Source: Natrinema sp. CBA1119 (lineage in GTDB: Archaea; Halobacteriota; Halobacteria; Halobacteriales; Natrialbaceae). Taken from it: a stretch of 64,000 bases of DNA. The position numbers and the translations under genes were made by a program. The notes under the pieces are model-generated. The model saw nothing but the letters and a program-made list of their open reading frames with translations. It had not been told where the DNA came from and did no database searches. The stretch covers positions 124,001 to 188,000 of the forward strand of contig NZ_PDBS01000001.1 of assembly GCF_002572525.1 (NCBI RefSeq), in the 5' to 3' direction. Positions within the stretch are counted from its first letter, which is position 1; the number at the start of each line of letters is the position of its first letter. This document shows, one piece after another, positions 23,098 to 56,519 of the stretch.

Positions 23098-23113
23098 TTT
23101 AGGTATACCAAAG
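23098..23113 (+). promoter_or_regulatory. Near-palindrome upstream of first dpsA
   Basis: TTTAGGTATACCAAAG contains the perfect palindrome GGTATACC and differs from the iron-box consensus TTAGG-N4-CCTAA at one position of the right arm. It sits about 40 bases upstream of the TATA-like GGCTTTATG near 23134-23142. The position is too far upstream for simple occlusion of the TATA box. A metal-dependent activator or a separate regulator would fit; this is inference. Confidence 0.4.
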
Positions 23114-23168: not shown

Positions 23169-23714
23169 ATGAGTACTCAAAAGACCGTCCGCCAATCGGC
23201 AGACAGCGTCGAGGAGAACGAACTTCGCCTCGAGCAGGAAAAGTCCGAGCAGATCGTCGACGCGCTCAACACGGAGCTGGCCAACTCCTACGTCCTCTAC
23301 CACCAACTGAAGAAACACCACTGGGTCGTCGAGGGCGCGGAGTTCCTGCCGCTCCACGAGTTCCTCGAGGAGGCCTACGAACACGTCGAGGAAGGTGCCG
23401 ACGTGATCGCCGAGCGAGCGCAGGCGCTGGGCGGCGTCCCCGTCTCGGGTCCGTCGAACCAGGAGGATCGCGCCACCGTCGAGTTCGAGGGCGAGGACGT
23501 CTACGACGTCCGAACGATGTTCGAGAACGACCTCGAGATGTACGGCGAGATCATCGAGTCGATGCGCGGCAGCATCGAACTCGCCGAGAACCTGGGCGAT
23601 CCCGCGACCGCCGAGATCCTCCGCGAGATCCTCGTCACGCTCGAGGAAGACGGCCACCACTTCGAGCACTACCTCGAGGACGACACGCTGGTGCTCGAGG
23701 AAGCGACTCACTGA
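23169..23714 (+). CDS. dpsA: DpsA-type ferritin (iron storage, DNA protection), copy 1
   Basis: 181 residues from the ATG at 23169. A TTTATG box about 30 bases upstream makes this a leaderless start; the frame extends upstream but not with conserved sequence. Dps four-helix features are YHQLKKHHWVVEGAEF, LHEFLEEAYEHVEEGADVIA and AERAQALGG, supplying His and acidic ferroxidase ligands at the dimer interface. It resembles haloarchaeal DpsA and oxidises and stores iron. A second, more canonical copy lies at 49666. A small iron-boxed gene follows on the opposite strand, and T-rich sequence at 23760 may end transcription. Confidence 0.9.
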   Translation: MSTQKTVRQSADSVEENELRLEQEKSEQIVDALNTELANSYVLYHQLKKHHWVVEGAEFLPLHEFLEEAYEHVEEGADVIAERAQALGGVPVSGPSNQEDRATVEFEGEDVYDVRTMFENDLEMYGEIIESMRGSIELAENLGDPATAEILREILVTLEEDGHHFEHYLEDDTLVLEEATH

Positions 23715-23841: not shown

Positions 23842-24009
23842 TCAGCGTTCGAGGTCGACCGCCAGATCCGTCGCGATCCAGCCGTCGCAGTTGTCTCGTT
23901 CGGTAAAGACGATCTTTCCGGGGCGGGTCTCGTGACTCGTCACGACCGCCGCCGGCTCTTCGACTGTTTCGTCGTGTTCAGGGTCCTCCCTGCGAGCGGG
24001 CACGTCCAT
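23842..24009 (-). CDS. 55-residue iron-boxed small protein, copy 1
   Basis: A 56-codon frame translated by hand: MDVPARREDP, then an acidic linker, then the core RPGKIVFTERDNCDGWIATD. The same core layout (GP/PG, RVVF, E, GW, I, SD/TD) recurs in the 55-residue gene at 50404-50571. Both have a TTAGGC-N3-CCTAA box directly before the ATG, and both lie just after a dpsA gene. It is a cytoplasmic protein of unknown role, likely made when iron is scarce. It is too short for default gene calling but well supported by paralogy and promoter. Confidence 0.75.
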   Translation of the reverse strand: MDVPARREDPEHDETVEEPAAVVTSHETRPGKIVFTERDNCDGWIATDLAVDLER

Positions 24010-24018
24010 CACGTGGAG

Positions 24019-24033
24019 TTAGGCGAGCCTAAA
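24019..24033 (-). promoter_or_regulatory. Iron box upstream of 55-residue gene copy 1
   Basis: TTAGGCGAGCCTAAA is a near-perfect inverted repeat ten bases before the ATG at 24009 and next to the A-rich TATA region AAATCTAAAAAGG. It has the same form as five other sites in this window, all at iron-transport-related promoters. A DtxR/SirR-type repressor is the expected binder. Confidence 0.75.
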
Positions 24034-24181
24034 TCTAAAAAGGTTTTGGTCGACCTAGGATACTGGGAGCTGACGGGTTTCGGAATCGATCCGGTGATTC
24101 GCGCGGGGTAGTGTCGAGCCCGTAGGGTTATCTCGCGCGGAGATAACATCCTTTTTCCCGATGCGACAAAATTCCCATCAT

Positions 24182-49489: not shown

Positions 49490-49574
49490 CTATAGTAGCC
49501 ACTGAAAGTCATTGCACGCCTGATCGACCGACAGCTGTACGATCAGTGTGTAAATCATTTCAGTGGCTACTATA
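49490..49574 (-). repeat. MITE-like element, copy 4
   Basis: 85 bases, the reverse-complement orientation of copy 3. The ends are CTATAGTAGCCACTGAAAG and TTTCAGTGGCTACTATAT, and the inner segment is TGATCGACCGACAGCTGTAC. It lies between the acidic-protein gene and the second dpsA. Confidence 0.8.
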
Positions 49575-49665
49575 TGACGGGGTGGTACCGATAGTTTAGG
49601 CAGTACGAAAAATAGTTCGTAAATTGAAAAGTTATAAGAGGCTTCCATCCCAAGTATGGGACGTG

Positions 49666-50211
49666 ATGAACACGCAAAAGACCACTCGACAGGCAGCGGA
49701 CACGGTCGAATCGAACGCGCTTCGACTCGACACGGAAAAGGCCGAGCAGATCATCGACGCGCTCAACACGGATCTGGCGGACGCGTACGTCCTCTATCAT
49801 CAACTCCACAAGCACCACTGGAACGTCGAAGGTGCGGAGTTCCTCGACGTCCACGTCTTCCTCCAGGAGGTCTACGAGGACGTCGAAGCCGCGGCCGACG
49901 AACTCGCAGAACGACTTCAGGCGCTCGGCGGCGTTCCGCACGCGAGCATGACGACGCTCGTGGAGAACGCGACGGTCGAAGCCGAAGACGAAGACGTCTA
50001 CGACGTCCGGACCTCGCTCGCCAACGATCTCGAGATGATGGGCGACATCATCGAGAGCTACCGCCAGCACATCGAACTCGCCGAGGGGCTCGGCGACTAC
50101 GCGACGGGAGAGATGCTTCGCGAGCAACTCGAGACCATCGAAGAACACACCCACCACATCGAACACTACCTCGAAGACGACACCCTCGTCCTCGAGTCCG
50201 CGACGCAGTAA
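49666..50211 (+). CDS. dpsA: DpsA-type ferritin, copy 2
   Basis: 181 residues from ATG 49666; a GTTATAAG box near 49630 supports this start. It is closer than copy 1 to the well-studied haloarchaeal DpsA: YHQLHKHHWNVEGAEFLDVH, AADELAERLQALGGVPHAS, EDEDVYDVRTSLANDLEM, HHIEHYLEDDTLV. It stores iron and protects DNA from Fenton damage. It sits at the edge of the iron-uptake island. A half iron-box (TTTAGGCAGTACG) lies near 49594. Confidence 0.92.
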   Translation: MNTQKTTRQAADTVESNALRLDTEKAEQIIDALNTDLADAYVLYHQLHKHHWNVEGAEFLDVHVFLQEVYEDVEAAADELAERLQALGGVPHASMTTLVENATVEAEDEDVYDVRTSLANDLEMMGDIIESYRQHIELAEGLGDYATGEMLREQLETIEEHTHHIEHYLEDDTLVLESATQ

Positions 50212-50580: not shown

Positions 50581-50595
50581 TTAGGCAGGCCTAAA
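50581..50595 (-). promoter_or_regulatory. Iron box upstream of 55-residue gene copy 2
   Basis: TTAGGCAGGCCTAAA, an inverted repeat directly followed by the A-rich promoter AATAAAAAG. It has the same position relative to the ATG as the site at 24019. A repressor bound here would cover the transcription start. Confidence 0.78.
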
Positions 50596-50655: not shown

Positions 50656-51072
50656 TCACCGAGAGTCCGACTGCGCGGAAGAGAGCGATTGCTCCGTGTC
50701 TTCGGACGGGTCGTCAGTATCAGCGAGAAGCGTCGATGCGAGGCGGTCGACGACCGTCGGACTGACCGTTCCCGCCAGTTCCATCGCCTCGCTCTCGTAC
50801 TCCTCGAGTCCGAACACGTCCTGAAAGAACCGCGAAAGGGTATCGTAGGTCTCGGACAGTTCTTCGGCGGTCGCTCGTCCCTCGGCCGTGAGCGTCGCTC
50901 CGTCGTACGGTTCGTACGTCAGGTAGCCGTCGGCTTCGAGCCGCTGAAGCATCTCCGTCGTCGCCGCCGGCGAACGGTCGACCGCGTCGGCCACGTGTCC
51001 GGGCGAAATCGGTGGGGAGCCCCGCTGTTCCGCAAGATAGAGAACAAGAAGGTAGTGGGAGGCCCCGGTCAT
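50656..51072 (-). CDS. DtxR/SirR-type metal-dependent repressor
   Basis: 138 residues. It starts at the winged-helix domain (SHYLLVLYLAEQRGSPPISP, GHVADAVDRSPAATTEMLQR as recognition region, DGYLTYEPYDGATLTAEGRA as wing). The dimerisation/metal helices LSRFFQDVFGLEEYESEAME follow, and the protein ends in a disordered tail. There is no SH3-like third domain. It is the likely reader of the TTAGGC-N3-CCTAA boxes around it, controlling iron uptake. This pairing is inferred from location and family. Confidence 0.85.
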   Translation of the reverse strand: MTGASHYLLVLYLAEQRGSPPISPGHVADAVDRSPAATTEMLQRLEADGYLTYEPYDGATLTAEGRATAEELSETYDTLSRFFQDVFGLEEYESEAMELAGTVSPTVVDRLASTLLADTDDPSEDTEQSLSSAQSDSR

Positions 51073-54866: not shown

Positions 54867-54881
54867 TTAGGCTAACCTAAA
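54867..54881 (-). promoter_or_regulatory. Iron box, proximal, before binding-protein operon
   Basis: TTAGGCTAACCTAAA, a perfect 5+5 inverted repeat five bases before the ATG at 54862 and overlapping the predicted transcription start. A TTTTAATG TATA-like box lies at 54883-54890. Together with the site 36 bases further upstream it forms a double operator. Confidence 0.8.
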
Positions 54882-54902
54882 ACATTAAAACTCCATCGAT
54901 TG

Positions 54903-54917
54903 TTAGGCGGACCTAAA
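54903..54917 (-). promoter_or_regulatory. Iron box, distal, before binding-protein operon
   Basis: TTAGGCGGACCTAAA lies 36 bases upstream (start to start) of the proximal box. The same double arrangement, 35 bases apart, occurs at 56471/56506. The pair brackets the TATA box, so a repressor bound at both could block it cooperatively. Confidence 0.78.
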
Positions 54918-56470: not shown

Positions 56471-56485
56471 TTAGGCCAGCCTAAA
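56471..56485 (-). promoter_or_regulatory. Iron box, proximal, before permease operon
   Basis: TTAGGCCAGCCTAAA overlaps the TATA-like TTTATATTTTAGG on the minus strand, seven bases before the ATG at 56464. Binding here would directly block the TATA-binding protein. Confidence 0.8.
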
Positions 56486-56505
56486 ATATAAAGGCGTTCC
56501 GGTTT

Positions 56506-56519
56506 TTAGGCTGGCCTAA
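56506..56519 (-). promoter_or_regulatory. Iron box, distal, before permease operon
   Basis: TTAGGCTGGCCTAA starts 35 bases upstream of the proximal box, repeating the spacing seen at 54867/54903. It lies 14 bases after the stop of the HEAT-repeat gene on the same strand. Confidence 0.75.

Follow-up and report, generated by a model that had tools for sequence, protein, structure and literature searches.

A conserved small protein with an iron-box promoter whose presence follows DpsA across the class Halobacteria

The locus investigated in this study is contained in a stretch of 64,000 nucleotides of the genome of Natrinema sp. CBA1119, to which we refer as the window and from whose first letter all positions are counted unless a contig is given. 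It holds two dpsA genes, each of which is faced on the opposite strand by a short gene that carries a palindromic iron box in front of its start codon. The features of both loci are the following:

23099..23112, plus strand: degenerate iron box of dpsA copy 1, TTAGGTATACCAAA, 56 nt from the ATG, located ahead of the TATA element
23169..23714, plus strand: dpsA copy 1, 181 aa, convergent with gene A, NF041388 285.7 bits
23842..24009, minus strand: small gene A, 55 aa, stop codon included in the coordinates, open reading frame with translation MDVPARREDPEHDETVEEPAAVVTSHETRPGKIVFTERDNCDGWIATDLAVDLER, divergent DUF7331
24019..24032, minus strand: downstream iron box of gene A, TTAGGCGAGCCTAA, TTAGGCTCGCCTAA, directly downstream of the TATA element
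24033..24040, minus strand: TATA-like element of gene A, within TTTTTAGATTT, at roughly -24 to -31 relative to the ATG, shared with relatives in a promoter alignment
24045..24058, minus strand: upstream degenerate box of gene A, CTAGGTCGACCAAA, family consensus TTAGGCCGACCAAA, -49 to -36
49596..49609, plus strand: degenerate box of dpsA copy 2, TTAGGCAGTACGAA, 56 nt before the ATG, alike in position and form in relatives
49666..50211, plus strand: dpsA copy 2, 181 aa, convergent with gene B, NF041388 284.5 bits
50404..50571, minus strand: small gene B, 55 aa, MTTGTQSDAERDSEPAATRGPEISVCESGPDRVVFIESGNTEGWISSDRVVESTR, divergent DUF7331
50581..50594, minus strand: iron box of gene B, TTAGGCAGGCCTAA, TTAGGCCTGCCTAA, 9 nt before the ATG
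50656..51072, minus strand: DtxR/MntR-type metal-dependent repressor adjoining gene B, PF01325 42.1 bits, PF02742 30.4 bits

Both DpsA proteins score far above the 170-bit cut-off of the NCBIfam model for haloarchaeal DpsA (NF041388), and the stop-to-stop distance between small gene and dpsA in the two convergent pairs amounts to 127 nt for A and 192 nt for B. A preliminary description of this DNA had proposed two 55-residue genes on the strand opposite dpsA, each with a box ten bases before its ATG. Both genes are present, as is a perfect TTAGGCNNGCCTAA box at either of them, with the spacing corrected to 9 nt. Just upstream of the promoter of dpsA copy 2 resides an 84-bp element (49491-49574) with perfect terminal inverted repeats of 17 bp, TATAGTAGCCACTGAAA. 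Allowing up to one mismatch, the genome contains this repeat 132 times, 69 of them in forward and 63 in reverse orientation, as opposed to 0 in the control. Many copies form inverted pairs about 67 bp apart, and the repeat defines a family of miniature inverted-repeat elements. Outside the window, three tandem DpsA-like genes, the last two of them divergent (NF041388 179-189 bits), are located at G000:C1:504454-506127. No small gene of the iron type was found near this triplet, and tandem DpsA-like triplets are also present in other haloarchaea.

Genes A and B are real and conserved genes coding for proteins of about 55 residues. Their products align over 53 residues with 36% identity (E 7e-9 in a single comparison) and are thus homologous, and the shared core of VF, E, N, GWI and D is found in both. 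The small protein is under purifying selection, with pN lower than pS in each of the 702 pairs compared and a median dN/dS of about 0.28 among 38 relatives. The notion that such genes fall below the usual size of gene calling holds in part, with plasmid homologues being missed in some RefSeq records and annotated as 'hypothetical protein' in others. In a set of 51 sequences, M1, E37, N40 and W44 are invariant and PG, DG, I and D nearly so, and the core, which follows the pattern E-x2-PG-x2-VF-x-E-x-x-N-x-DGWI-x-x-D, constitutes a hairpin that succeeds an N-terminal half which is acidic and probably disordered. The predicted structure, whose confidence is modest (pLDDT 73, pTM 0.40), contains this single hairpin with the remainder being poorly defined. 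Searches of the PDB by sequence gave no match to the small protein and a search by fold with the predicted model as query returned nothing meaningful, with no solved fold matched; NCBIfam contained no match to either protein, and a search of viral contigs with protein A found no relative.

The regulatory context of the small genes is reflected in the distribution of the palindrome TTAGGN4CCTAA, of which the window contains six exact copies and one with a single mismatch compared to 0.21 sites expected when allowing for up to one mismatch. The entire genome of 5.06 Mb holds 13 exact sites (reversed control 1), six of them in the window, and other boxes of the genome precede genes of siderophore uptake, encoding a siderophore-binding protein and a permease. 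The palindrome is perfect in 89 of 90 homologues of the small gene in the Natrialbaceae, where it resides exactly 9 nt from the start codon in 84 of 90 cases, and it is found in 78 of 80 homologues outside this family, at a distance of either 7-9 or 28-35 nt. When aligned at the ATG, the Natrialbaceae promoters display a TATA-like element at about -31 to -24, followed by the box from -23 to -10, and further upstream another conserved element, TTAGGCCGACCAAAA, from -49 to -36. The operator of the small gene overlaps the core promoter, as is expected for a member of a DtxR-family regulon. In light of the tight spacing between box and start codon, the transcript is probably leaderless with the repressor bound between TATA element and start, and the position of the operator together with the company of siderophore-uptake genes suggests that the small protein would be made at low iron. 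Boxes are also found in pairs with a distance of 35-36 nt, at 54867-54916 upstream of a siderophore-binding protein gene and at 56471-56519 upstream of an open reading frame of 78 residues preceding a FecCD-type permease, which suggests the presence of tandem operators in this regulon.

The dpsA promoters show a different arrangement. A clear degenerate box upstream of the TATA element is found in only 25 of 83 cases, compared to none expected, and the copies in the window are of this form. Such a position would fit a site of activation or a neutral site but not one where a bound regulator blocks transcription. Taken together with known biology, the positions of the boxes suggest that the small gene and dpsA would be under opposite control, in agreement with the lower level of DpsA reported for iron-deficient cells of Halobacterium, although this is a different organism (review, PMC3600143).

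The preliminary description had made its proposal dependent on homologues being found next to dpsA in other haloarchaea, and such homologues are found throughout the class. In the Natrialbaceae, the small gene has a homologue in each of 81 genomes, and 76 of 91 homologues are located within 3 kb of dpsA, with 74 of these 76 pairs being convergent and gaps extending up to 2.9 kb. Class-wide, both genes are linked in 79 of 97 genomes, with all eight families represented, while in about 18 of the 97 genomes they are unlinked; of the 86 pairs lying no more than 5 kb apart, 83 are convergent. Among 292 genomes, 275 contain both genes, 13 neither of them and four, all from one genus, dpsA alone, whereas the small gene by itself was encountered in none. 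The corresponding Fisher p of 1.7e-19, which ignores relatedness, overstates the association, given that the genomes share ancestry and that one deletion can remove two neighbouring genes. The 13 genomes that contain neither gene span nine genera, with several having sister species that have kept both, and a few are drafts of 91-95% completeness, so that some of the absences may be gaps. In 12 of these 13 genomes the iron-box regulon has been retained, with 6-10 perfect boxes (control 1-4), thus illustrating that the small gene follows DpsA rather than the regulator or its regulon. The four genomes with dpsA alone (G147, G162, G172 and G274) belong to genus g34 of family f6 and contain no detectable small gene of the iron type; in two of them DpsA is more divergent (E 8e-72 and 7e-76). 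It is thus established that haloarchaea contain a small protein which is conserved, has an iron box in front of its gene and accompanies DpsA in its occurrence.

The relationship extends to the paralogues of both proteins. Gene B is part of a cassette containing siderophore-binding proteins, a FAD oxidoreductase, the DtxR-type repressor and the small gene, which is convergent with dpsA and found in whole or in part on plasmids of Natrinema versiforme, Halostagnicola larsenii and Halobellus limi. In a phylogenetic tree, the B-linked DpsA proteins, which originate from four families, form a single clade of 17 members (support 100/99) that is separate from the A-linked DpsA, and this shows that DpsA paralogues match the paralogues of the small protein. 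Within the B clade, the small gene and dpsA appear to travel as a unit. One row of this clade was labelled A2 by the motif rule although its sequence (CES) is B-like, and three DpsA rows labelled B fall outside the main clade, indicating that either the motif rule or the pairing is imperfect. Since neighbouring genes can be lost and transferred together, co-occurrence and paralogue matching both weigh less than their numbers suggest. With these qualifications, the initial proposal is supported in part: the homologues next to dpsA and the conserved box bear it out, co-occurrence and matched paralogues speak for a functional tie to DpsA, and control of iron release or of ferritin activity is a candidate role of the small protein. 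In Halobellus limi, an annotated amphi-Trp-like small gene is located between the B-type gene and dpsA, and a putative counterpart, judged by resemblance in sequence, is placed alike in a further member of this family (L222 1184-1501; L300 4303-4557).

The described properties leave room for an effector of the low-iron response that would not touch DpsA at all, such as an iron-sparing regulator or a modulator of the DtxR-family repressor, with proximity to dpsA resulting from the clustering of iron genes. We regard this scenario as less likely than a partner of DpsA, but as a substantial rival to it. In its favour, the B-type gene adjoins the DtxR gene in the window and in the same order on plasmids of several genera, and unlinked copies outside the Natrialbaceae have kept a box with at most one mismatch in 22 of 24 cases. 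On a Haladaptatus plasmid, moreover, a B-type gene is accompanied by genes for DtxR and an iron ABC transporter, and the portion displayed contains no dpsA, which counts against a strict pairing of the two genes. A general effector would be at odds with the persistence of the box regulon in 12 of the 13 genomes that have neither gene, with the fact that the small gene is never found alone, and with the A-type gene in the window, which has no DtxR neighbour. A second scenario, in which the functional product would be the transcript, with transcription into the convergent dpsA at low iron silencing this gene by an antisense mechanism or by interference, would account for the prevalent convergent orientation and the usually short gaps. 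It is nevertheless improbable in light of the clear purifying selection on the protein sequence, the persistence of unlinked copies with protein and box intact, the gaps of up to 2.9 kb and the lack of any Rfam family in the region between 23 and 24.6 kb.

A third scenario concerns the relationship of the small proteins to the unnamed Pfam family DUF7331 (PF24018), which was detected in all 292 haloarchaeal genomes tested with 1-10 copies per genome. Proteins A (E 7.2e-5, 23.7 bits) and B (E 1.8e-5, 25.6 bits) both match this family below its gathering cut-off of 27 bits. Of 51 proteins sampled from the iron-box group, 46 match it at E <= 0.01, and a profile of 51 relatives aligned to the main DUF7331 copy with hhalign at P 7.7e-5 and a probability of 62%. 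Both groups have in common their size and a hairpin core (VF/VVFYD, N, W, D/E). The iron-box group differs by carrying the box, by tracking DpsA and by the scores of A and B below the cut-off. In contrast, the main copy shows no comparable box, with every site in the scanned stretch of 30 loci containing at least three mismatches, and it has no dpsA neighbour at its locus in this genome, which together define the iron-box proteins as a distinct subfamily of DUF7331 that is distributed across the class Halobacteria. The main copy (L014 1501-1668; G000:C1:381526-381693; core VVFYDAENPLAWVETS) is extremely conserved across haloarchaea and followed downstream by the gene of a putative membrane protein and by a short open reading frame resembling a regulator. 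The recognizable relationship of the subfamily to a family of such general occurrence would be compatible with an ordinary paralogue of housekeeping or structural function that was recruited to the iron regulon but given no task specific to iron. We give little credence to this reading, as the main copies examined lack the box and as the subfamily, distinguished by an invariant core of its own, is missing where dpsA is missing. We found no paper on DUF7331 or on HVO_0537, which, judging by its locus number, may be a small gene between dpsA and idr of Haloferax.

In its proposed role, the small protein would resemble Bfd, a small accessory protein of ferritin that promotes the mobilisation of stored iron (PMC10536872). 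The likeness is confined to this role, as both proteins are unrelated in sequence and as the partner of Bfd is a heme bacterioferritin, whereas that of the small protein would be the 12-mer DpsA. An identity as Bfd-like ferritin ferredoxin was rejected, since the cysteines that hold the [2Fe-2S] cluster in Bfd have no conserved counterpart among the 51 sequences and the small protein is thus not expected to contain such a cluster. The same distinction applies to Nostoc punctiforme, where a ferredoxin, as a protein separate from Dps, was proposed to interact with Dps and release iron from it (PMC10536872), this ferredoxin being a redox protein and the small protein a hairpin devoid of conserved cysteines. 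On the side of regulation, the palindrome TTAGG-N4-CCTAA, found here also before siderophore-uptake genes, recalls the regulons of the haloarchaeal DtxR family. For Haloferax volcanii, three proteins of this family, Idr, SirR and TroR, are named as controlling iron homeostasis (PMC11349517). A small DpsA-linked member of a DtxR regulon was not found in the literature searched, although the comparative work of Leyn and Rodionov (2015) on DtxR regulons in archaea or a study of 2024 on TroR in Haloferax may already list the small gene as a hypothetical member.

Collectively, these features suggest a mechanism where, at sufficient supply of iron, a metal-bound repressor of the DtxR family would occupy the box that directly follows the TATA element and block the probably leaderless promoter of the small gene, in many genomes binding also to the second box upstream of TATA, while the same regulator bound to the degenerate box upstream of the TATA element of dpsA may support the expression of this gene. 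As iron falls, the repressor would leave, the small protein would be made and the expression of dpsA would drop. The small protein might then bind to existing DpsA shells via its Trp-containing hairpin and turn them from stores of iron into donors, be it that loading is blocked, that release is opened or that shells are marked for turnover. We infer both that the small protein binds DpsA and which way it acts, and for a low-iron partner acting on DpsA in one of these ways we consider the chances to be about evenly balanced. Against such a partnership stand the four genomes with dpsA alone, the roughly 18 of 97 genomes where both genes are unlinked, the Haladaptatus plasmid, the three stray B rows, the restriction of the dpsA-promoter box to 25 of 83 cases and the modest structure model with no match to a solved fold. 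Somewhat more tentative is the full proposal of a class-wide, non-redox DpsA binder of about 55 residues that is induced by iron starvation, would switch its target from storage to release or turnover in a manner unlike Bfd or NCOA4, and would be controlled opposite to this target, with one type of operator sitting behind the TATA element of the small gene and ahead of that of dpsA.

The exit of iron from mini-ferritins of the Dps type is poorly understood, and the small protein offers a specific, widespread and genetically tractable candidate for this process, whose presence tracks DpsA across an entire archaeal class and which appears to contain a built-in switch for low iron. Our study also illustrates how one type of box is apparently used on opposite sides of the TATA elements of two adjacent genes, and it offers a hypothesis for the function of part of DUF7331.
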